NCBI GenBank assembly: GCA_016789175.1 | Contig: JAEURK010000182.1 | Coordinates: forward strand, 1-39,480 | Origin: Anaerolineales bacterium | GTDB taxonomy: Bacteria > Chloroflexota > Anaerolineae > Anaerolineales > UBA6663 | Reading direction: 5' to 3' | DNA length: 39,480 bases | Part shown: positions 1 through 21,394 of the stretch, in pieces | How the letters are laid out: every line of letters begins with the position of its first letter | How positions within the stretch are numbered: the stretch's first letter is position 1 | The notes under the pieces: generated by a model | Database searches by the model: none | What the model saw: the letters and a program-made list of their open reading frames with translations, nothing else | What the model was told of the DNA's origin: nothing | Made by a program: the position numbers and the translations under genes

Positions 1-1617
1 CAGCGACGCGGCGCTCAGGTGGGCGGTGGTCCAGACCGGGCCATATTCCGGATCGATCCAGTTCGCGCCACGGCCCGGGTGCGGGACCTCGGGCGTATCG
101 ACCGTCGCCTCAAGGTCGCCTTCCTGGGCATCAATGACCACGACTTTATTGGATTGGTTGGCCGCGACCAGGAAGAAGCGCTCGGTGGAATCCCACCCGC
201 CGTCATGCAGGTAGAGCGTCGACTGGATCATCTTGATCGTCGGGTTGGTCGGATCGGTGTAGTTGACCAGCCAGACCTGTCCGGTCTCCTTGACGTTGAC
301 GATCCATTCCGGCTTGTAGGTCGACGCGACGATCGCGGCCACGCGTGGGTCACCGACGTAGGCGTTGGTGTCGGCGGTGTAGCCGCGCACGCTGACGACC
401 TTGAACGGCTCGAGCGTCTGGCCGTCCAGGATCGCGAAGTGCGGAGGCCAGTAGCAGCCCACGATCGCGTACAGGTCGGAGAAGTCGCCGAGCTCGCCGT
501 TGTATTTGCTGACCTCGACCGAACGGGCGTCGTAACACGTTTGAACCTCGGCGACCTTCTGTGGGATCTCCATCCACAGGTCGACGAGCGCCAAGCGGCC
601 GTCGCGACCGATGACGTAGGCATAGCGTCCGGTAGCCGACATGCGCGTGATGTGGACTGCATAGCCGGTGTCCACCGTCGTCACGACCTCATGGGTGTCC
701 CCATCGATAATGGCAACCTGCCCGGCATCTCGCAGCGTCACGCTGAAGTAGTTCTGCCAATTGCGCTGGGTCTGGGGCTCCGTCGGGCGTTGGCTCGGAG
801 GCACCAGCAGCTTCCAGGAGGCCTTCATCTCCTCGAGCGACATCTCCGGCGGCGCCGGCGGCTCGTTCTGAAGGTATTTGGCCATGAGCGTGATCTGGTC
901 GGCCGTCAAGATCCCCTGGTTGCCCCAATCGGGCATGCCGCGTGGCGTGCCGTTGGTGATGATCGCAGCCAGGGCCAGCGTGCCCTTGGCCGTCGTCAGA
1001 TCCGGGGTCAGCGCCGGCCCGGTCGCACCCTTGCGCAAGGTGCCGTGGCAACCCGCGCAGCGTTGAAAGAATGTTTGCTTGGCCCAGGCATAGTCGTCGT
1101 CGTTGAGTGCGATCTCGCTGACCTGTGCCTCGGCGGATCCACCCGCGCTCCCCATCGACGCCTCGCTCGCGGGCAGCCCGGTCAGATAGCCGACGATTGT
1201 GGCAATCTCCGCTTCAGAAAGCGTCTGCGCCAGGGTGGCCGGCATCAGCCCCTTCTGACAGGCCGCGGTCGGGCAATCCGGCACCAGGAAGGCTTCTGGG
1301 GCCAGGATCGACTCCCGGATGTACGCCGCGGCTGTGGTGGCAGAACCCGTATAGCCTGGATCCGCGAGGCGCGTCTGGGCAACCTCGACGATCGTCGAGA
1401 GATCCGGCCCGAGCGCCCCGGACGTTGGGGCGCCCGGGATGACGTGACAGGCGAAGCAGCCTCCTTTTTGGAACGCCGCGGCGGGACTGCCGCTCGCGGC
1501 GACCGGCTCGGCGGTTGCCGGTGGCACGGTGGGCGCCGGCGCTGTTGGTGCGACCTGTTGCATACAGGCCGCCACAAGCACCCCAAGCGCGAGCGGTAAG
1601 AGATGTCGAAGCTTCAT
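1..1617 (-). CDS. nirS: Cytochrome cd1 nitrite reductase NirS with extra N-terminal cytochrome c domain (3' end missing)
   Basis: Reduces nitrite to nitric oxide in denitrification, outside the cytoplasmic membrane. 539 codons are visible; the C-terminal part lies beyond the left edge. The start is ATG at 1617 behind a GAGGGG ribosome site. Residues 1-18 form a lipoprotein signal (VAAC, Cys18), so the enzyme is probably lipid-anchored. A first cytochrome c domain has CFACH at 54-58 and a candidate Met125 ligand. The normal NirS c domain has CAGCH at 187-191. The d1 propeller follows: VTLRDAGQVAIIDGD, DTGYAVHITR with His322, and distal-pocket His471 and His513. The spacing from the c-heme His191 to His322 is 131 residues, matching His69-His200 of the Paracoccus pantotrophus enzyme, so this module is canonical and the first ~130 residues are an addition, perhaps replacing a NirC/c551-type electron donor. 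NirS identity is certain; the role of the extra heme is inference. Confidence 0.95.
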   Translation of the reverse strand, partial: MKLRHLLPLALGVLVAACMQQVAPTAPAPTVPPATAEPVAASGSPAAAFQKGGCFACHVIPGAPTSGALGPDLSTIVEVAQTRLADPGYTGSATTAAAYIRESILAPEAFLVPDCPTAACQKGLMPATLAQTLSEAEIATIVGYLTGLPASEASMGSAGGSAEAQVSEIALNDDDYAWAKQTFFQRCAGCHGTLRKGATGPALTPDLTTAKGTLALAAIITNGTPRGMPDWGNQGILTADQITLMAKYLQNEPPAPPEMSLEEMKASWKLLVPPSQRPTEPQTQRNWQNYFSVTLRDAGQVAIIDGDTHEVVTTVDTGYAVHITRMSATGRYAYVIGRDGRLALVDLWMEIPQKVAEVQTCYDARSVEVSKYNGELGDFSDLYAIVGCYWPPHFAILDGQTLEPFKVVSVRGYTADTNAYVGDPRVAAIVASTYKPEWIVNVKETGQVWLVNYTDPTNPTIKMIQSTLYLHDGGWDSTERFFLVAANQSNKVVVIDAQEGDLEATVDTPEVPHPGRGANWIDPEYGPVWTTAHLSAASL

Positions 1618-1697: not shown

Positions 1698-2522
1698 TTA
1701 GGGTGGATCGGCGATCAACGTCTGCAGCCAGGTCTTCAAGCGATCCGTCCGCGTCGGCTCCGGATCGTGCGGACAGCCCAAACACGTGGCGTCTGCATCC
1801 AGGCGATCGGCCAGGCAACAGACCGCGCGCTTGACCGCCACCGCGCTGCGGCCACCGGCTGTGACCCGAACCAGCTCGACCGGGCGCAGCCCGTGCGCAC
1901 CGCCCGCCATCACATCGGTTAGGATGTCCTGCGTCAACGGGTGGTTGAGGTGCTGGCCGACCTGGGCGATGGCCTGTGCCACCTGATCACTGGCCGCACC
2001 CCTCAGGATCTCGGGTGTCAACGCTCCGGATCGGGCAAACGGCGGGATGAGCCGGTCGAGACTGCGCGCGATCTCCCGCCCGACTCGCTGGCACCGTTCC
2101 AGCAGTGAGCCCGTGTACGCTTCAGTCGCCGGCCAGATGTCTTCAATGACGCCCGCTCGAACACCAACCCACGTCCGGTCCGGGTCCGGCGCCAATGCAA
2201 GATCGCTGACCACCAAGGAGGTCGTCGGCGCGATCGTCAAGGCGCGCACAAAGGCGTTGAAGCACTGAAGCACGAGCGCCTGCCGGTCAGGGACCGCAAA
2301 GTGGCGTGCACGAACAGCCAGAGCGTGTTCGATCCAGTGCTCCTCGGCGCACGCGAGCAAGCGAACGGCGTGAACGGGCGCAGGCCCGGCTTGAATCGTC
2401 TCGGGGCCCTGTGCCAGGACGGCATCGCGCATGAGGGCGGCGCAGACGCCAATCACGACATCCGATAGCCCTCTGGTGGGAAGCCGGCCCGGCAATGCGA
2501 AACAGTCTTGTGGAGCAAGCAT
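1698..2522 (-). CDS. FhuF-like [2Fe-2S] protein
   Basis: 274 residues. The C-terminus carries the ferric-siderophore-reductase FhuF signature: C235-C236-x10-C247-x2-C250 followed by Pro, which in FhuF binds an unusual [2Fe-2S] cluster. The N-terminal ~230 residues are soluble, with no signal peptide or membrane span, as expected of a cytoplasmic reductase. The start is ATG at 2522 with AGGTGAGGG upstream. It lies 80 bp before nirS on the same strand and is probably co-transcribed with it. Established for the family: reduction of ferric siderophores. Inference: here it may instead provide electrons or iron for heme c/d1 enzyme maturation, since no siderophore gene is visible. The cluster motif is seen directly; the substrate is unknown. 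Confidence 0.75.
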   Translation of the reverse strand: MLAPQDCFALPGRLPTRGLSDVVIGVCAALMRDAVLAQGPETIQAGPAPVHAVRLLACAEEHWIEHALAVRARHFAVPDRQALVLQCFNAFVRALTIAPTTSLVVSDLALAPDPDRTWVGVRAGVIEDIWPATEAYTGSLLERCQRVGREIARSLDRLIPPFARSGALTPEILRGAASDQVAQAIAQVGQHLNHPLTQDILTDVMAGGAHGLRPVELVRVTAGGRSAVAVKRAVCCLADRLDADATCLGCPHDPEPTRTDRLKTWLQTLIADPP

Positions 2523-3282: not shown

Positions 3283-6159
3283 TCAGCGCATCAGCAGCGA
3301 CAGGAATACCCTTTGGGCAAAAACGCCGTCGTTGAGCGCTTCGAGCACCAGTTGTCCATTCTGGTTTGAGAGGTCGTACTCAAAGCCTGGCATCAGACCG
3401 CTGATCTGGACGTTGTCGAACGCACCGACGACGCCTCCGGTCGCGCTGAGGAACGCGAAGTGATCGCCCCGCTGAGGCGCGAATCCATGGCCGAAGTTGA
3501 GCACCAGGGTACCGTCGAGGCTGGCCGTGCCGGTGATGCCCAGGCTCCCGTACAGGCCAGCGCCACGCCCAAGCACCGGGATCTCCAACCGGCCGCCGGG
3601 CCCCATGCTCAGCGTGCCGCTGATCGCCAGCGTGGGCGTCAGCGCCGCGGCCTGCACCCGCGTGGCGCTTTGGGGTGATGCTGCAGGAGCGGCTGGAACC
3701 TGTAGATTGATGCCGGGAACCAACGTCCCATCGTTCTGCAACCCGAGGAAGTTCACCGCCAGCGTCCCTGTGCCGGTGATCACGCCGTTGGGGGTGATGT
3801 ACGTCCCGTTGGTCGCCACCAGCGCGTTGGCCTTCATCTCCACCAGCCCTGTGCCGCCGCCCACGGCCCCAACCGTCAGCACGTCCAGGGCACGCACCAT
3901 GCCGCCATCCACGGTGATCGAGCCGTCACCGCTCAACCCGGCCTGGCCGAGTTGGATGTTCCGGCAACGGAACAGGCCGCCATCGTCCAGCGAGACGCCG
4001 CCGTCGTAGGTGTGGCCGATGACGCACAAACCCGCCGCCGGGTCCACCACATCGAGCTGGGTCGGGAGTGCCGTATTGGCCGCGCCCCACAGGATCGCGG
4101 CGCCTTCGCCATCCTTGCCGATGATCAGGTCGCCTTCGATGCCGCCGCGCGCCGCATTCCACAGGGCCAGCAGGTTAGCGCTGCCCGGCCCACCGACGAA
4201 GACCGTGCCCAACACATCCATTTGGGAGGGGCCGCCGGTGGCGTGGCGGCCGTCTATGCGGAGCTCGCCATTCTTGATGTGCACGTCTTGGCTGACGTAC
4301 AGGCTGCCGCCCTCCAGCACCGCGACCGAGCCGAATTCCTTTTGACCAACGAACAAGCTGCCCAGGAGCGCCCACAATGCTGGCTGACCGTTGACGGCGC
4401 TGATGCCGTTGACGGTCACTTCCGAATCTCCACTGAGGACGCCCCAGCTCACATAGGCGTCGTTTGAGTTGACGCGCCCGCCGTACTGGATAGTCAACGT
4501 GCTGCTGATGCCGTAGCCCACGGCGATGTTGCCGGTCTCCCACAACGACCCGGCGCCACCCACATCGGCTGTGCCGGTGCCCGTGGCCAGCAGGCCGCCG
4601 ATACGCGCTTCCGCGCTGGTCAAATGCCCCCCGGCCGTCACAAACAATTCGCCCGCGCCTTCGTCGCCAATGTTCAGGCGGCCCGTACCGGTCAGCCTGG
4701 TCCCGTTGCCCAACACCTGCAACCGGGCCAGGGGCGGATTGGAGGGATTGGCCGGCAGCGCGCCGCCGATGGTGGCGTGGATCATGTTGCCTGCACCCGA
4801 AGTGATCCGTACCGTACCTCCTTCGTTGACGGTTAGTGCTGGTTCATCCACCGAATCGTCCAGCAGATTCAGCGACAGATTCTGGAAATCCACGGTATTT
4901 GTGCCCGAGATGATCGCTCGCCCCACCGGGAAGTTGGCCTGGGATGAGATGGAGGTGATGGCGGGACCGGCATCCACCGTATATTGCCCGCCCAGGGCGA
5001 AGATGACGGTATCGCCGTCGCCGGGGTCGCCCTGCGGATCCCAGTTCGTGGTCACGTGCCACGAGCCGCCGCTCGGATTGGTCCAGTTATAGGCACTCGG
5101 CTTAAGCAAGAAGGCGCGCGTCTGCCCATTGAGGGCACCAAAACCCACGATCCTGCCTTTGTTGTTGATGGCGCGCGCTTCCTGCAACACCCAGCCGGTA
5201 TTGGCGGGGATCAGGCTGTTGAGGTCCTGCATCTGGCCGTTCGCCCAGAGGAAGGCGTGCGAGGTTTGCCCGGTTTGCAGCGCGCCGACCACCTGACCTT
5301 TGTCGTTGATGTCATAGGCGATGCTTTGGTCCCAGGTCAGCGCACCCAGGTCCTGCATTGAACCGTTCTGCCACAAGAAGGCGTGCGGCGTGCCATTGGC
5401 CAATCGGGCAGTGCCGACCACCTGACCATTTTTGTTGATCGCCTCCGCCGAGCTGTAGTCGCCGCCCAGCGTGCCCAGGTCCTGCATTGAGCCGTTCTGC
5501 CACAAGAAGGCGTGAAAATTCGCGGAGTCGTCGTACGAACCGCCGACCACCTGCCCGGCGTCGTTGATGCCGTATGCCGCGCTGATGGCGGGCCACAGCG
5601 GGTCCAGGTCGCCCAGGTCCACGATCCCGCCGCTGCCCCACAGAACGGCGTGAGAAAGATAGGTGTCGGGCGCGCAACAGGCGTACCCGACCACCTGCCC
5701 GGCGTTGTTGATCTCGAAGGCATAGCTGGTCGTGCCACCCAGCGTGCCCAGGTCTTGCATGGCGTTGGTTTGCCACCGGAAGGCGTGGTTGTTTCCGCCG
5801 CCAAGGGGCGAGCCTCCGACCGCCTGACCGGCGTCGTTGATGGCGTAGGCCCAGCTCCCCTGCCCACCCAGGTCGCCCAGGCTGGTCAGCGTGCCGTCAT
5901 CCCATAGGAAGGCATACAGGACCGAACTGCTTTGTGACGCGCCGACGACCTGCCCGTTCACGTTGATCCCCATCGCCTTGGTGGTGGGCCCACCCAACGT
6001 GCCGAGGTCGGTGAGGGTGTAGCGGGATTGGGCGGACGGGGCGGCCTGGAGCGGTTCCGCTCCAGGCACGGCGGCCAGGGCCGCAGGCCCTCTGATGATC
6101 CATCCCAACGCGAGCAGCAGGACCGCAATCGAGAACCGAGAGCGCATCTGTCTTTTCAC
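3283..6159 (-). CDS. Secreted HAF-repeat / beta-solenoid protein
   Basis: 958 residues. An N-terminal signal peptide (FSIAVLLLALGW... ending near AALAA) directs export. Residues ~45-360 hold seven HAF repeats of the type DLGTLGG...INxxGQVVG...HAFLW, predicted to form a beta-propeller-like surface. Next comes a passenger-like segment with NWT...W...G.P.DGDTVIF and many Gly/Val-rich strands (ITSGAGN, GTGTADVGGAGS, LEGGSLYVSQ) typical of autotransporter-like beta-solenoids. The C-terminus is AQRVFLSLLMR. The start is GTG 6159 because GGAGGTGATT, almost a perfect anti-SD match, lies six bases upstream. Probably a surface or matrix protein; no catalytic motif was seen. It follows another secreted repeat protein on the same strand. 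Confidence 0.85.
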   Translation of the reverse strand: MKRQMRSRFSIAVLLLALGWIIRGPAALAAVPGAEPLQAAPSAQSRYTLTDLGTLGGPTTKAMGINVNGQVVGASQSSSVLYAFLWDDGTLTSLGDLGGQGSWAYAINDAGQAVGGSPLGGGNNHAFRWQTNAMQDLGTLGGTTSYAFEINNAGQVVGYACCAPDTYLSHAVLWGSGGIVDLGDLDPLWPAISAAYGINDAGQVVGGSYDDSANFHAFLWQNGSMQDLGTLGGDYSSAEAINKNGQVVGTARLANGTPHAFLWQNGSMQDLGALTWDQSIAYDINDKGQVVGALQTGQTSHAFLWANGQMQDLNSLIPANTGWVLQEARAINNKGRIVGFGALNGQTRAFLLKPSAYNWTNPSGGSWHVTTNWDPQGDPGDGDTVIFALGGQYTVDAGPAITSISSQANFPVGRAIISGTNTVDFQNLSLNLLDDSVDEPALTVNEGGTVRITSGAGNMIHATIGGALPANPSNPPLARLQVLGNGTRLTGTGRLNIGDEGAGELFVTAGGHLTSAEARIGGLLATGTGTADVGGAGSLWETGNIAVGYGISSTLTIQYGGRVNSNDAYVSWGVLSGDSEVTVNGISAVNGQPALWALLGSLFVGQKEFGSVAVLEGGSLYVSQDVHIKNGELRIDGRHATGGPSQMDVLGTVFVGGPGSANLLALWNAARGGIEGDLIIGKDGEGAAILWGAANTALPTQLDVVDPAAGLCVIGHTYDGGVSLDDGGLFRCRNIQLGQAGLSGDGSITVDGGMVRALDVLTVGAVGGGTGLVEMKANALVATNGTYITPNGVITGTGTLAVNFLGLQNDGTLVPGINLQVPAAPAASPQSATRVQAAALTPTLAISGTLSMGPGGRLEIPVLGRGAGLYGSLGITGTASLDGTLVLNFGHGFAPQRGDHFAFLSATGGVVGAFDNVQISGLMPGFEYDLSNQNGQLVLEALNDGVFAQRVFLSLLMR
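5345..5514 (-). repeat. Near-identical 41-bp repeats within HAF coding region
   Basis: A 41-bp segment at 5345-5385 recurs at 5474-5514 with one visible difference. The period is 129 bp (43 codons), i.e. one HAF repeat. It encodes the stretch from LGTLGG-type residues to the HAFLWQNG motif. The high DNA identity suggests recent duplication or gene conversion between repeats. Confidence 0.8.
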
Positions 6160-6268
6160 AATCACCTCCGCAGTCGATCCCAGGCCGAATCGGCCACGCG
6201 CAGTGCTGAACGATGGGCTTCACCCGCCGATCAGCGCTGCGCGGGTCTCGTCCCACGTGGAACGTGCT

Positions 6269-7861: not shown

Positions 7862-8084
7862 GGTTTCCTCCAGCGGTCGCTTGTTTGAACCTGGCGTCCA
7901 TCACGAGCGGTTTCACCCACTCGTGACGGAAGAATGTGCCCTGCTCGCGCATGGCCGTCGCCAGTCTAGAACGTGGCCATTGTGTGACTCTCGCGGGTTC
8001 GTGCGGCGTGGCACAAACAAAGCGACTTTTGTTGCAAAATCACAAGGGGGAGGAAACCGTCCGGAGACTGTTGTCGCAAAATCA
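7862..8084 (-). promoter_or_regulatory. Upstream region of beta-helix gene with 19-bp direct repeats
   Basis: This spacer between the SARP-type regulator and the beta-helix gene holds two 19-bp direct repeats, 8024-8042 and 8066-8084, identical at 17 of 19 positions (core GCAAAATCA). They are spaced 42 bp, or four helical turns. The second overlaps the regulator's stop codon. Each copy contains a TTGTnGCAAAA element. A 7-bp inverted repeat TCACGAG/CTCGTGA with a 12-base loop lies at 7901-7926, just before the gene. Tandem direct repeats on one DNA face are typical of SARP-family operators, so this is a candidate target of the adjacent regulator; binding is inference. Confidence 0.5.
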
Positions 8085-11000
8085 GGCAGATGGCTTGCGG
8101 CGCCGTGTCAATGGCCGCTGACGTTCTCGCGCCAGCGTCGCCATATCGCGTAGGATGGTGTGACGGCTAACACCGAGGGCGCGAGCGAGGTCCTGGTCTG
8201 TCGGGGCAGCCTGCTGCCTTTGAGCCTCCTCCAATAGCCGGCGCAGGCGGTAGCGACGACGGGCCACCTTCCCGGCGATGGCTTCATCTTCAGGGGCGTG
8301 GAGCGTCCACTCAATCGCCACGCGCTCCGTTTCTGTCAGAGTCCGCCCCAATGGGGCTTCAAGACGCGCCAGGGTGATCGTGCAGGTGGGTGCGCGCCCG
8401 ATCGTCTCGAAATAAGCCGCCGCGACCGCGCGATTGACCGGCACAGACCGGAAGAAGCTTTGGCGCACCTGATCATCCTGAAGAATCTTTGCCTGATGCA
8501 GCAACGCCGCGTAGGCTGCCTGCAGGACGTGACGCGCGTCTTTGCTGCGACCCACTCGATCAAGAAGCTGGTACAACGCCCACAGGTGATATTGTGGGTC
8601 TTCGCCACCGGGGGGCCGTCGCCGAAAATCGTCCCAGGCCTGATCCGCGATTGTCAATGCTCGCGGGCACTCGCCCGAATCCAGGAAAGCATGGCCCAAT
8701 AAGACGCGACTGCGCCAGAGGTTTGCCAGGTCGTTGTTCTCCCCGAACACGGCCGTCGCCGCCTCCAGAAGCACGATCGCCTCCCCGCCCTCTCCTTGTC
8801 GGATGCGAACCGCACCGAGAGCCTGTTGCGCCAGGGCGCCATAGAGCCGGGTGTGATGAGCCTGCGCCAGCCTAAGTGCGGCCTCGATTTGTGTTGCGGC
8901 TTCGTCCAGGTTGCCCTCGCGTTCAGCCACGATTCCTAGACTCGTCGAATAGACGGCGACGCCATCTGCGTCGCCCATCGAGCGGAAGTGATCGATCACG
9001 GTCGTGATCAGTTGGCGCGCGCCGGCGAAGTCGCCGAGGGCACATACCGCCAGCCCCAGCGCGGCGCGCACCACTGCCGCACCGAGGCGATAGCCGACCG
9101 CTTCGTTCGCCGCCAGGGCCTGGTCGCTCAAGGCCATAACGCGGTCTAGAGCCCCACCCGTCTGGAGGAAAGCGAGATAGTTAGCCAGTGAACGCGCCTC
9201 GCCGAAATGATCCCCACTGGCGCGCCGCACCTGCAGCGCCTGGAGGAAATAAGCTTCTGCGTGCTGGCGCGAGCCACCCACCGAAGGCAGTACAAAACCC
9301 AAACCATCGAGCGCCAGGGCTTCCTGCACACGGTCGCGGCACTTCCGCGCAAGAGACAACCCCTGGCCATAGTGCGACTTGGCAGCCTGAACGTCGCCGG
9401 TGCGCACTTCAAGATCGCCCAGTCGGATCAGGATCTCGGCCTGTTGGGCCGGGTTGGCGGCGCGGCGCGCCCGCACCAGCGCGTCGCTGAGGAACGTCAG
9501 GGCGTGCGGATGATGTCCTGTCTTGGTCGCCAGGTCACCCGCCGCGATCAGGATGCGCGCCTGTCCGCCAGGGTCGGGCAACGAATCGAGGTGCTGCATC
9601 CCTTCGTCGATCGCACGCGCCTGCCGTTCACGGTCGCCGGTGACATCACATGCCTGCACAAGTTCGAGCAGGAGTGCGGTGCGCTTCCTGCTCGAAAGCT
9701 TGGGTAGAAGGGCCAGGGCGCGCTCTAATGCGTGCTGAGCTTCCCGAAATGCGAACCGCGCGACCTCCTGCGCACCGACCTGCCAGTAGGCTTCACCGGC
9801 CTCTTCCATCCGGCCCGCCCGTTCCAGGTGGAAGGCACGGACGCGCCAGTTTTGAGGGTCGCGGGTGGCGACCGCGTCGGAGGCGCATGCATGGAGCGCG
9901 ACTCGTCGCACGGGTGCGATCGTCTCGTAGATCGCCGTGCGGATCACATCGTGCAAGAACGCATATCCATCCTCGGTGGCCTGCAGAAAAGAATGGGCAA
10001 TCAGTTCCTCGCCTGCTGCGGCGAGCGCGATCGGCGATTCGTGGAGGAGCGTCATCCAAAGATCAAACGCCACTTGCTCGCCCAGCGCTGCAGCCGCCTC
10101 GAGCGCGGCCCGCGCAGACGTCGATAACGCTCTCAGCCGCGCCTCGAGCGTGCCTCGCCTCGCCAGATACTCGGTCACGTGCAGGGGATTGCCTCCCGTC
10201 AACGCGATCACGCGCGCCGCCTCCGTTCCATCGGCTTGAGACAGCAACCGCACGACGTCCTGCAGGTCAAAGGGTCCGAGGGTCACGGCCCCAAGGTAAC
10301 CGGCGCGGTCCCACTTCTGCAAGACCTGCCAGCCCGGATTCTGCTCGATGCCGGGCCGGCGATAGGCCAGGAACAGGAGCAGCGGCGCGGCGCGAGTGGC
10401 GGGTACGAGCGCGTCCAGCAGGTCCCAGAGCGCCGCATCCGCCCAGTGCAAATCGTCGAGCAATAACATGAGCGGGGCGATCCGCGTCAGGGTTTGCGCC
10501 AGGGTGACAAAGCTGTCGTGGAATCGTTTGCGAGCTTGCGCGGGCGGGAGTTCGGGCAGAGCCGCCCGGCCGCGCCAGGGATCGTAGACCGCGGAAACCG
10601 CCGCCAGGGTCTCGGGTGCAACCAGGTGCTCCACCTGCCGGACCCGGGGATCGAGGATGGGACGCAACGCTTCGGCGATGGGCGTGAAGGGCGAGGCGCT
10701 GGGAAACTCGCTGGCCCGGCCGTAAGCGGTCAACGCACCGCGCCAGCGTGCGCTCGTGGCCCATTCGCGCAACAGACGGCTCTTGCCGATCCCCGCCTGA
10801 CCCTCGATGCACCACAGACCGCCCTGCCCCGCCATGACCTGCTCGATGCGCTCCACGCCCAATTGACGCTCTCGCACGCGTCCGACAAAACGTGTCCGTT
10901 CAGCGACCGGCGGCGCGGTCGGAGCGGTGTCGGTTTCGCGTCGGATCGCGTCCATCAAGGCGTGCATCTCTGCCGGCAACTCGACGCCGAGTTGTGTCCG

Positions 11001-11636
11001 GAAGAGTCGACGCGCATCGTCGTAATGCGCGAGGGCTTGGGCGCGGCGATTGAGCCGGCCGAGCAGTCGCAGGTAGGTCTCGTGAGCCGACTCGCGCAAG
11101 GGTTCCACAGAGATCAGGCGCCGGACATGCGTCAGTGCACCGGCCAGATCCCCTTCCGCCTCGCTCGCCGCCGCCAACCTGTCAAGGAGGGTGAGGTATT
11201 GGTCTTGGAGTGCGAGGCGCGGCGCGATGATCCAGTCGGCATAAATCTCGGGCAGGAGGTCGCCCGTGTACAGCGCGGCGGCTTGTTCGAGCGCTGCGCG
11301 GTCGCCGTGTGTGGCCAGCCGCTCGAATTCCCATGCATCCACCCACCATGTGTCGTCCACATGCAGACCCACGTACTCTGAGTCCGCCATGAGCCAGCCA
11401 GCCCCCAGGGCCTGACGCAAACGGTAGAGCGCGTCGGAGAAACAGCGGCGCACGCTCCCCGCAGGCGCATCTGGGAAAAGCAACTCCGCTAGCCGTTCGC
11501 GTGGGTGCGAGGTGCGCGCATGCAACACCAGATACGCGAGCAAGCTCGAGGGTCTGCTGCCTGGCACCCAGAGAGGGCGGTCGTGGTCGGCAACCTGGAG
11601 AGCGTTGAAAAGGCAGATACGCCGATGGTGGTTCAT
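8082..11636 (-). CDS. Large SARP/BTAD-type transcriptional activator with AAA ATPase and TPRs
   Basis: 1184 residues from ATG 11636 (MNHHRRICLFNAL). Residues ~5-95 are an OmpR/SARP-type winged helix (LLAYLVLH, RERLAELLFPD, VRRCFSDALYRLRQAL). Residues ~100-245 are the bacterial transcriptional activator (BTAD) helical repeats. An ATPase follows with P-loop GQAGIGKS at 279-286 and a Walker-B-like LMLLLDDLHWAD. Many TPR helices span ~600-1080. The C-terminus (~1130-1175) adds a second helix-turn-helix (DQDLARALGVSRHTILRDMATL). This matches LuxR/MalT-like ATP-driven one-component regulators. It lies 220 bp upstream of two secreted proteins on the same strand and probably controls them. The extra C-terminal HTH is uncommon in SARP proteins. 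Upstream AUG alternatives exist, but the domain begins here. Confidence 0.85.
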   Translation of the reverse strand: MNHHRRICLFNALQVADHDRPLWVPGSRPSSLLAYLVLHARTSHPRERLAELLFPDAPAGSVRRCFSDALYRLRQALGAGWLMADSEYVGLHVDDTWWVDAWEFERLATHGDRAALEQAAALYTGDLLPEIYADWIIAPRLALQDQYLTLLDRLAAASEAEGDLAGALTHVRRLISVEPLRESAHETYLRLLGRLNRRAQALAHYDDARRLFRTQLGVELPAEMHALMDAIRRETDTAPTAPPVAERTRFVGRVRERQLGVERIEQVMAGQGGLWCIEGQAGIGKSRLLREWATSARWRGALTAYGRASEFPSASPFTPIAEALRPILDPRVRQVEHLVAPETLAAVSAVYDPWRGRAALPELPPAQARKRFHDSFVTLAQTLTRIAPLMLLLDDLHWADAALWDLLDALVPATRAAPLLLFLAYRRPGIEQNPGWQVLQKWDRAGYLGAVTLGPFDLQDVVRLLSQADGTEAARVIALTGGNPLHVTEYLARRGTLEARLRALSTSARAALEAAAALGEQVAFDLWMTLLHESPIALAAAGEELIAHSFLQATEDGYAFLHDVIRTAIYETIAPVRRVALHACASDAVATRDPQNWRVRAFHLERAGRMEEAGEAYWQVGAQEVARFAFREAQHALERALALLPKLSSRKRTALLLELVQACDVTGDRERQARAIDEGMQHLDSLPDPGGQARILIAAGDLATKTGHHPHALTFLSDALVRARRAANPAQQAEILIRLGDLEVRTGDVQAAKSHYGQGLSLARKCRDRVQEALALDGLGFVLPSVGGSRQHAEAYFLQALQVRRASGDHFGEARSLANYLAFLQTGGALDRVMALSDQALAANEAVGYRLGAAVVRAALGLAVCALGDFAGARQLITTVIDHFRSMGDADGVAVYSTSLGIVAEREGNLDEAATQIEAALRLAQAHHTRLYGALAQQALGAVRIRQGEGGEAIVLLEAATAVFGENNDLANLWRSRVLLGHAFLDSGECPRALTIADQAWDDFRRRPPGGEDPQYHLWALYQLLDRVGRSKDARHVLQAAYAALLHQAKILQDDQVRQSFFRSVPVNRAVAAAYFETIGRAPTCTITLARLEAPLGRTLTETERVAIEWTLHAPEDEAIAGKVARRRYRLRRLLEEAQRQQAAPTDQDLARALGVSRHTILRDMATLARERQRPLTRRRKPSA

Positions 11637-11789
11637 ACGAGAATCCGACCTGGCGTCCTTGGGGTGAAGACCACGAGCGGCGACCAGGCGCGACGTCCAT
11701 GCCAAGCAGGCGGAAATCCTGGACGGCGTTCGTCCAGCGGAGCTCTCAATCTGGGCCGGCGCACACCCCCGAGACCTGGTCGGCTCGTC

Positions 11790-18376: not shown

Positions 18377-21300
18377 TCACGAGCTGGCCAGAATATGGCG
18401 CACGACATCGAGAAGCGATTGGGACCGACCACGCTCGAGGGCGATGGCAACGGCGGCGACGGGCAGGTTTCTAGATAGGTCGGGCAACAGCGCTCGTGCG
18501 GCGGCCACGGTCTCGGAGACCGCCGCCGGATCATGGAGCGGCAGCGCTAGCCATTCCAAGGCAACGATGGCGTCTCCCGACCTGGCGGCCAGCAACGCCA
18601 GCGTGACCAGAGCGTCCAGCGCCACGAAGTCGAATTGGCCCGCCTGGGCTTCCGCGAGGGCTGCCCGCACGTTGCGCCGGGCAGCCTCGTCGTGCCCAAG
18701 GCGGGCCTCTACCGAGCCCAGGTTGTTCAGGGCCAGCGCGATGCCCAGACGATGGCCGCTCTCGCGATGGACGGCCAGCGCCTGCTGGTAATACTCGCGC
18801 TCTTCGGTGAAGCGACCGGCCCGGCGGGCCGCGGCCCCAAGGTTCGTCAACACCGCGCCGGTGCGGCGGGCATCGTTGTACTCACGCGAGATCACCAGGG
18901 CTTCCTCGAGCAGCGACACAGCCTGCGTGTCGTCGCCGTGGTCCACCAGAGCCGTCGACAGGTTGATCAGGCTAGACGCCACCCCCACCCGGTCGCCGAG
19001 TGCGCGCCGCAGGGCCAGGCACTCGCGGTGAAGCTCTATCGCCGCGGCCGAATCGCCCATGTCGCTGACGACCACGCCCAGGTTGTTGAGCGCGCCGGCC
19101 TCTTCGTCGCGCAGGGCGTGCTCGCGGGCCACTGTCAACTGCTCGCTGTGGAACCCGCGGGCTCGCTCAAACTGGCCCGCGGCGCGCGCGGCCGTGCCGA
19201 GCCCATTCAAGCACCGGGCCAGTTGCCGCGGCTCGACCACGCGCTCGAAGTCCTCGCGGCCCGCCTCAAAGAGCGACACAGCTGTGTCGGACTGGCCGAG
19301 CTCCAACAGGAAGCGGGCGCGCGCCACGCTCAGACGAGCCGCCAAATGGCCGGGCTCGTCGGTCGTCGCCGGATCCCGACCCAGCGCCTCGGCAGCGCGT
19401 GATAACCAATCCACGCCCTCGCGGAAATGGCCGCGGACGTGCATGAACTGAAAGACGCCTTCGAGCATCCGGCTGACATCCGCCCACCGGCCATGGGCGC
19501 TCGCCCAATCCCAGGCCGCACGTACGTTGTCGAGGTCGTCGGCCATGATCGACATCCAGGAGCTCTGAGCGCCGGGCGCCGTGGCCGTCTGCGTGAGCGC
19601 CGCCAGCCAACTCGCGAACCAGCCGCTGTGCCGGTTGTGGAGTTCAGCGCTGAGACCGGGTTCGAGCGCCAACGCCTCGTCGGCGTATCGCCGCAGGACC
19701 TCGTGGAGGTCAAAGCGCCCGCCGCTCTGGCGCACCAGAGATTTGTCGACCAGCGCCGCCAGGGCCTGCGGCGTGGTCCGAGCGATCTGGCTCGCGGCCT
19801 CCGCCGTGAACCCGCGCGGGAAGACGGCCAGGGCGACGAACACCCGGCGCTCATCCATCCCCAGAGCTGCCACCGAAGTTTCGACCACGGCCCGCAGGCT
19901 GCGCTGCCGCTCCGGCACGTCGCGGTGACGCGTCACCAGGAAGTCGGTACTGCGGCGGATTTCAGCGACGATCTCGGCGCAGTCCAGAGCGCCCAGGCGG
20001 GCCGCTGCCAGTTCGATGCCCAACGGCAAGCCTTCGACCATCCGGCAGATCTCGCGGATCGCTGCGGCCTGCTCGTCACCGGCAGGGATCGAGCGTCGCT
20101 GGCGTTCGACGACCTGCAGGAACAGCTGTCCGGCGGAATAGGTCGCCGGGTCCGCCCCGGGTTCCGTCGACAACGCCAACCCATCCAGGGCGAACACCCA
20201 CTCGCTCTGAAGGTCCAGGCGCTCGCGCGAGGTCACCACGATCTTCACGTCGGGCGCGGCGCGCAGGATGTCGGAGAGCAGCTCGGCCGACTCAACGAGA
20301 TGCTCGAAGTTGTCCAGGACGAGCAGGAGCTCGCGGGCGCCCAGTGCGTTCAACAATTGCTTCTTGATGTTGCCAGCTCGCAGCACCAGGCCGATGGCGT
20401 CCGCCAGGTGCTCGATCAGATCCTCGGGGCTGGCCGTGCTCAGCGACACAAACCAGCACCCATTTAGGAAAGTCTCCACGGTGGCAGCGGCGAGCTGCGT
20501 CGCCAGGCGGGTCTTGCCGATCCCGCCCGGCCCGATCAGCGTGACCAGACGACAGGCCGGGTCAGCCAGGCGTTGTTGGAGCTGGGCAAGCTCGCCTTCC
20601 CGACCCACAAAGCCCGTCAGGTTGCCCGGTAGATTGTGTCGAGGACCACGCTGCGCCGACTTGAGTCGCTCGTACAGCGCTGTGGTTTCGGCCGACGGTT
20701 CGACGCCCAACTCCTGCGCCAGCACCTGGCGACAGATCGCGTACTGCGCCAAGGCCGCCGAGCGCTGACCGGTGCGGGCCCTGAGCCGCATGAGTTGTCG
20801 GTGCGCTTCCTCGCGCCAGGGGTCGAGCGCGAGCAGGCGCACGGCGGTCTCGACTGCTCGGCTGTACTCACCGCGCGCCGTCAGGTGCCCGGTCAGCGCA
20901 TGCAGTGTGTGCAGCACCAGCTCGCGATAGCGGGCGCGTTGTAGCAGCACCCACTCCTCGAATTCCGGCGCATCGCGAACGACGAACCCGGCCAGGAAGT
21001 CGCCGACGTACAAGGCGCTGGCCGCTCGCCAGCGCTCACCTTGGGCATCCGGCGCAAGCCCCTCATCCGCGTTCAAGGAATCCAGGAAGGCCTCGACATC
21101 GACCCAGCAAATCCCTGCAGGGTGAAAGGCCACGGTCTCGCGATCGATGCGGAGGTAGGGCCCAACGAGCTTGCGCAGGTTGGTCAGCGTCTGGCGCAGG
21201 TTGTTGCGCGCGTCGGCATCGGGGAGTCCGCCCCACAACAGGGTGGCCAGGGTTTCGCGCGATTGTGGGCGGCGCTCGACGGCCAGAAACGCCAGCAGCG

Positions 21301-21394
21301 CCGCCACCTTGTGCGACGTGAACCCGGTCAGGGGTGAACCGCCGAGGGTCAGCTGCAAACCGCCAAAGAGCCGGATCTCGAGGCCTGAGTCCAT
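18377..21394 (-). CDS. SARP-type regulator with BTAD, NB-ARC ATPase and TPR domains (AfsR-like)
   Basis: 1005 residues, ATG at 21394. Residues ~1-100 form the SARP winged helix (IRLFGGLQLTLGG, HKVAALLAFLAV, RNNLRQTLTNLRKL). BTAD helices span ~105-250. An NB-ARC ATPase follows with P-loop GPGGIGKT (~289-296), Walker B LLLVLDNFEHL and TSRERL sensor. Residues ~610-960 are TPR repeats (ALNNLGVVV, SSLINLSTALV, AVLTNLGAAAR). The family acts as ATP-dependent transcription activators in secondary metabolism or development. Unlike the other giant regulator in the window it has no C-terminal HTH. It is convergent with the M23 gene and downstream of the amidase gene on the same strand. The target is unknown. 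Confidence 0.88.
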   Translation of the reverse strand: MDSGLEIRLFGGLQLTLGGSPLTGFTSHKVAALLAFLAVERRPQSRETLATLLWGGLPDADARNNLRQTLTNLRKLVGPYLRIDRETVAFHPAGICWVDVEAFLDSLNADEGLAPDAQGERWRAASALYVGDFLAGFVVRDAPEFEEWVLLQRARYRELVLHTLHALTGHLTARGEYSRAVETAVRLLALDPWREEAHRQLMRLRARTGQRSAALAQYAICRQVLAQELGVEPSAETTALYERLKSAQRGPRHNLPGNLTGFVGREGELAQLQQRLADPACRLVTLIGPGGIGKTRLATQLAAATVETFLNGCWFVSLSTASPEDLIEHLADAIGLVLRAGNIKKQLLNALGARELLLVLDNFEHLVESAELLSDILRAAPDVKIVVTSRERLDLQSEWVFALDGLALSTEPGADPATYSAGQLFLQVVERQRRSIPAGDEQAAAIREICRMVEGLPLGIELAAARLGALDCAEIVAEIRRSTDFLVTRHRDVPERQRSLRAVVETSVAALGMDERRVFVALAVFPRGFTAEAASQIARTTPQALAALVDKSLVRQSGGRFDLHEVLRRYADEALALEPGLSAELHNRHSGWFASWLAALTQTATAPGAQSSWMSIMADDLDNVRAAWDWASAHGRWADVSRMLEGVFQFMHVRGHFREGVDWLSRAAEALGRDPATTDEPGHLAARLSVARARFLLELGQSDTAVSLFEAGREDFERVVEPRQLARCLNGLGTAARAAGQFERARGFHSEQLTVAREHALRDEEAGALNNLGVVVSDMGDSAAAIELHRECLALRRALGDRVGVASSLINLSTALVDHGDDTQAVSLLEEALVISREYNDARRTGAVLTNLGAAARRAGRFTEEREYYQQALAVHRESGHRLGIALALNNLGSVEARLGHDEAARRNVRAALAEAQAGQFDFVALDALVTLALLAARSGDAIVALEWLALPLHDPAAVSETVAAARALLPDLSRNLPVAAVAIALERGRSQSLLDVVRHILASS

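Follow-up and report, generated by a model that had tools for sequence, protein, structure and literature searches.

The window analysed here, 39,480 nucleotides in length, is an entire contig (C102) of a Chloroflexota genome (G000; 5.6 Mb in 460 contigs, 93.9% complete). At its edge lies a nirS gene, visible in the minus-strand translation as an open frame of 539 residues that runs from an ATG at position 1617 down to position 1. The earlier note had placed nirS at 1-1617, and this assignment holds; the strand, which it did not give, is minus, and the gene is truncated at the window and contig edge. The missing C-terminus (the last 142 residues) was located on two further contigs of the same genome, C385 and C386, each overlapping the end of C102 by exactly 136 bp. 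These two contigs share 95% identity and hence appear to be one locus seen in two strains. The full-length protein would have approximately 681 amino acids, comparable to its relative L004 (80% identity). The features of the gene are listed below.

1..1617, minus strand: nirS 5' part, residues 1-539 of ~681 (translation; PF02239; exact contig overlaps)
1564..1617, minus strand: lipoprotein signal peptide, residues 1-18, lipobox LVAAC with Cys18 (sequence; motif kept in relatives)
1174..1482, minus strand: added cytochrome c domain C1, approximately residues 46-148 (SoxX-like match; PDB 1w2l; invariant alignment columns)
1444-1458, minus strand: C1 heme motif CFACH, residues 54-58
1243-1245, minus strand: candidate C1 ligand Met125 (invariant alignment columns)
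868..1107, minus strand: canonical NirS cytochrome c domain C2, approximately residues 171-250, ligand Met228 (PF13442; equivalents of Pseudomonas aeruginosa His51 and Met88 invariant)
1045-1059, minus strand: C2 heme motif CAGCH, residues 187-191
1..762, minus strand: cytochrome d1 propeller, first 254 residues (PF02239; equivalents of P. aeruginosa Arg156, His182, Arg198, His327, His369, and Arg372 invariant)
652-654, minus strand: d1 ligand His322

The combination that defines NirS, a cytochrome c domain fused to a d1 propeller, was found with the corresponding Pfam models (PF13442/PF00034 and PF02239) above their cut-offs; for the window protein, Cytochrom_D1 (PF02239) matched with E 6.8e-84 and Cytochrome_CBB3 (PF13442) with E 3.9e-15. 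With the exception of the added N-terminal part, the relative L004 aligns through the C-terminus of 1bl9. The added part begins with a type II signal peptide whose lipobox recurs in relatives, and its C1 domain was not matched by any Pfam model at the threshold applied. C1 resembles SoxX-type cytochromes (48 bits, under that model's cut-off) and matches a solved cytochrome c domain (PDB 1w2l, E 5e-5); two additional conserved cysteines upstream of Met125 also occupy invariant alignment columns. Cys18 (in VAAC) and both heme motifs, all pointed out in the earlier note, are present in the minus-strand translation, and His322, proposed there as the d1 ligand, aligns with P. aeruginosa His182 and Paracoccus His200. 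The spacing of 131 residues between His191 and His322 is indeed that of Paracoccus (69 to 200) and also that of P. aeruginosa (51 to 182). The other d1-pocket residues in the window part of the propeller are Arg296, Arg338, His471, His513, and Arg516.

A total of 29 homologous loci were retrieved, and the three-heme fusion was present in about 28 Chloroflexota genomes. The proposal that the first ~130 residues are a true addition is well supported, with both CxxCH motifs found in the same frame in more than 20 independent assemblies. Every Chloroflexota copy with an N-terminus, except L022, had the two motifs 132-141 residues apart in a single frame. A lipobox-like motif preceded C1 in 26 of 26 Chloroflexota copies with a readable N-terminus (the window and 25 loci; L022, with its broken frame, and L020, whose N-terminus is missing, were excluded), with one sub-clade (n = 7) carrying the atypical LWAC, VWAC, or IWAC in place of the usual lipobox. 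This conservation lends good support to the predicted lipid anchor. A conserved start inside the frame, around residue 140 and with a signal peptide of its own, would have separated the two parts; the C1-C2 linker of the homologues examined contained no signal peptide, and an internal start before C2 was rejected. An assembly or annotation artefact linking a separate cytochrome gene to nirS is barely credible and was rejected: the gene is split across contigs in the window genome, but the split falls inside the d1 domain and not between C1 and C2, and the fused frame recurs in many independent genomes, closed and high-quality ones among them. Judged by this recurrence, the fusion is neither chance nor artefact.

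Five loci (L012, L013, L014, L015, and L078) carried a further domain of ~120 residues ahead of C1, with the lipobox before that domain; in L013, the extra domain had no Pfam match. Their arrangement corresponds to the cupredoxin-C1-C2-NirS type described by Schwartz et al. 2022 (Figure A6), which has the three-heme core in common with the window protein and differs from it by the additional N-terminal copper-protein-like domain. Three other observations concern variant d1 proteins. L027 is a two-heme NirS with a lipobox-like leader, and lipid anchoring of NirS may thus occur without C1. A Chloroflexota d1-domain protein (G283:C3:48410-49176) extends across two adjacent frames, owing to a frameshift or as a pseudogene. 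Several Myxococcota hits, including G1005:C50:230050-231180, have d1-domain frames of 650-950 aa and may represent further undescribed fusions.

The architecture itself is already in print, and the novelty implied by the earlier note was overestimated. Schwartz et al. 2022 (PMC8756737) described C1-C2-NirS in Anaerolineales, named Anaerolinea thermolimosa as a cultured carrier of the gene, called the architecture "unique to Chloroflexi", noted cupredoxin variants, and proposed that C1 may act like the donor cytochrome c551. A 2024 study (PMC10999283) assigned C1-C2-NirS to NirS clade 1g. The window protein agrees with this published group in domain order, phylum, and catalytic residues, with a second c551/552-like cytochrome domain N-terminal of C2-NirS in one frame, and on these grounds is a further member of it. 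Compared with the papers found, the additions are the conserved lipobox, the occurrence in Gemmatimonadota, and the lack of known d1 genes. In PMC8756737, the word lipoprotein does not occur and a genome-wide lack of d1 biosynthesis is not mentioned; the supplement of PMC10999283, where nir accessory genes (nirBEFJNT) are tabulated by clade, may already record part of the latter.

Among the 298 Gemmatimonadota genomes scanned, five contained a d1 domain; in marine isolates beyond this set, a Gemmatimonadota paper mentions NirK/NirS genes and a cluster predicted for heme D1 (PMC11651109). In each of the five Gemmatimonadota NirS (L087-L090 and L055), one frame held two CxxCH motifs, separated by 110-111 residues, together with a hydrophobic leader whose last residue is Cys; the lipobox pattern was matched in four, L089 being borderline. 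PMC8756737 limits the architecture to Chloroflexi, whereas these sequences indicate that it is not restricted to that phylum. Gemmatimonadota C1 differs from its Chloroflexota counterpart in having neither the extra conserved cysteines nor the GLMP motif. Comparison of the two C1 profiles detected homology (hhalign probability 96%), which is expected since both are cytochromes c. A maximum-likelihood tree, unrooted and built from the C2-d1 part common to all, placed the Gemmatimonadota proteins with two-heme NirS of Myxococcota and SAR324, and the Chloroflexota proteins with NirS of P. aeruginosa and Paracoccus (split support 99/98). The simplest reading of this topology would be two independent fusions; a single ancient fusion followed by losses is compatible with the present sampling.

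In order to assess the active site, we tabulated nine diagnostic positions (P. aeruginosa numbering; d1 contacts taken from PMC7278500): the heme c ligands His51 and Met88, the d1 ligand His182, the d1-binding Arg156, Arg198, and Arg372, the catalytic His327 and His369, and Trp498. All nine were identical to P. aeruginosa in 25 of 25 Chloroflexota and 5 of 5 Gemmatimonadota sequences. The window protein has these residues as far as it extends, ending before Trp498. Because the nine positions are intact (the control genome G023 has a NirF and a NirN that deviate at positions 327 and 372), the proteins are NirS by sequence and appear to be selected for the same type of cofactor. Like canonical NirS (P. 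aeruginosa, 1nir; P. pantotrophus, 1aof), the window protein combines C2 and the propeller with the heme c and d1 ligands, the d1-binding arginines, and the catalytic histidines. Unlike the window protein, canonical NirS has neither C1 nor a lipid anchor and is encoded in nir operons with nirF, nirJ, and nirDLGH.

From these features we infer, with a probability of roughly 0.6, that the protein is a cytochrome cd1 nitrite reductase with three hemes, held by a lipid anchor and supplied with electrons by C1 as a built-in donor. Once exported, the protein would be lipidated and cut by signal peptidase II, and Cys18 would hold it on the outside of the cell membrane. Electrons of the respiratory chain, delivered by a membrane complex or a mobile carrier, would enter at C1 and move on through C2 to the tetrapyrrole of the propeller; there nitrite would be converted to NO with the help of the conserved pair His471/His513. 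It is plausible that C1 substitutes for a separate donor cytochrome, as already proposed in PMC8756737. An AlphaFold model of L004 (mean pLDDT 78) was confident in the propeller, but its confidence was low for C1 and near the heme motif of C2; as the pLDDT of C1 is too low to place hemes or measure distances, the model speaks neither for nor against the C1-C2 electron path.

The known genes for the cofactor count against the nitrite reductase reading, for these genomes seem to lack them and canonical activity is not expected without d1. Synthesis of d1 requires SUMT (uroporphyrinogen-III methyltransferase), siroheme formation, NirDLGH, NirJ, NirF with NirC, and NirN (PMC13168839; PMC7242693). 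Searches with PF02239 found NirF or NirN in none of 33 genomes (28 Chloroflexota and 5 Gemmatimonadota). In 23 Chloroflexota nirS genomes, NirS was all that the profile recognised; no further hit exceeded 32 bits by itself or 52.6 together with neighbours, and such hits were rejected as NirF candidates against ~200-230 bits for NirF and NirN in the control genome. Five more distinct genomes from a 400-genome Chloroflexota scan likewise lacked NirF and NirN among hits listed to E 1e-20, as did the Gemmatimonadota genomes among hits listed to E 1e-15. None of the 33 genomes had a hit above cut-off to PF17805, the siroheme decarboxylase domain. No genome of the 24 tested reached the NirJ cut-off of 515 bits, which is strict, as the control also falls short of it (376 bits). 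The best NirJ-like score in the three-heme genomes was 174 bits, and three of the better hits, on inspection, were TIGR04053 radical SAM proteins and were not accepted as NirJ. SUMT was absent from 25 of 28 Chloroflexota genomes.

Most of these genomes are metagenome-assembled, and gene absence was judged by profile searches. We rejected incompleteness as a general cause, given that the closed single-contig genomes G029 and G136 also lack NirF/NirN, siroheme decarboxylase, and SUMT. The searches were sensitive, since they detected the d1 cluster of the control genome (NirF/NirN, NirDL, and NirJ homologues clustered together with SUMT) and found SUMT above cut-off in 11 of 14 reference genomes. 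As a baseline, 18 of 379 Myxococcota genomes had a presumed NirS (d1 domain above 400 bits, counted by hand), and 16 of these 18 also had NirF/NirN-type d1-propeller proteins, versus 0 of 33 here (Fisher p 2e-11, a guide only, related genomes not being independent). The gap does not go strictly with the presence of C1, because two SAR324-like genomes with ordinary two-heme NirS (G427 and G428; L030 and L031) also lack NirF/NirN and PF17805.

With the known d1 pathway missing, the cofactor would be either supplied from outside or made by an unrecognised route. Heme d1 is inserted outside the membrane, and an anchored, exposed apo-enzyme could therefore be loaded externally. We tentatively propose, at somewhat less than even odds, that these proteins form a class of lipid-anchored three-heme NirS that arose at least twice (in Chloroflexota and in Gemmatimonadota) and functions in hosts unable to make d1, and that they are loaded with d1 from neighbouring denitrifiers or hold another tetrapyrrole in the unchanged pocket.

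A full but unrecognised d1 route built from non-orthologous enzymes, such as TIGR04053-type radical SAM proteins, seems rather unlikely to us. Proteins of this type, related to AhbD/NirJ2, do occur in some of these genomes, and partial gene sets near NirS are known, the nic cluster of Thermus listing NirJ as its only maturation protein (PMC5748679). However, SUMT, the entry step to siroheme, is missing in most of the genomes, and in the window genome and the relative nearest to it, the best NirJ-like hits amount to generic SPASM background (76-77 bits). We consider it quite improbable that the propeller holds a different tetrapyrrole (e.g. heme b) or none in vivo and that the protein serves as a membrane-bound electron-transfer, NO-related, or scaffold protein. 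Such a role would agree with the absence of every known d1 step searched for and, in most genomes (the two closed ones included), of SUMT, and with the scaffolding function that has been proposed for NirS without d1 in P. aeruginosa (PMC7278500). Against it, neither the arginines that bind d1, nor the d1 ligand, nor either catalytic histidine varies over two phyla, and such constancy is difficult to account for unless d1 chemistry is under selection.

The presence of nirS in a genome is routinely taken as a capacity to convert nitrite to NO. If Chloroflexota and Gemmatimonadota genomes with nirS cannot make d1, either that inference is unsafe for two environmentally common phyla, or the organisms rely on neighbours for the cofactor, or a d1 route is still to be discovered.

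As for the genomic surroundings, no denitrification operon was found near nirS. Of the 24 regions compared, 8 had Crp/Fnr-type regulators no more than 10 kb from nirS, which counts for the nitrite reductase reading. We also looked for a conserved neighbour gene that might replace d1 biosynthesis and found none; Crp/Fnr regulators and a membrane protein were all that recurred. Just downstream of nirS, on C385 (L074:1577-2218, minus strand), one frame encodes a DeoR-type HTH followed by a NosL domain. About 2.8 kb downstream, on the opposite strand, lies the end of a hydroxylamine-oxidoreductase-related multiheme cytochrome (C385, L074:1-480, and C386, L075), recognised by PF13447 and by matches to PDB 4qo5 and HAO. 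These two neighbours, not found at the related loci compared, place nirS in a nitrogen-oxide setting, which likewise favours that reading.

Upstream of nirS by 80 bp and on the same strand, positions 1698-2522 (minus) encode a protein of 274 aa whose C-terminal FhuF 2Fe-2S motif scored exactly at the cut-off of Pfam; it was not found near nirS of relatives. Further along the window, positions 3283-6165 (minus) encode a protein of 960 aa in which seven HAF repeats occur together with T5SS/PEP-CTERM-associated repeats. The same contig carries two large SARP/AfsR-type BTAD/AAA/TPR regulators at 8082-11705 and 18377-21394, both on the minus strand.
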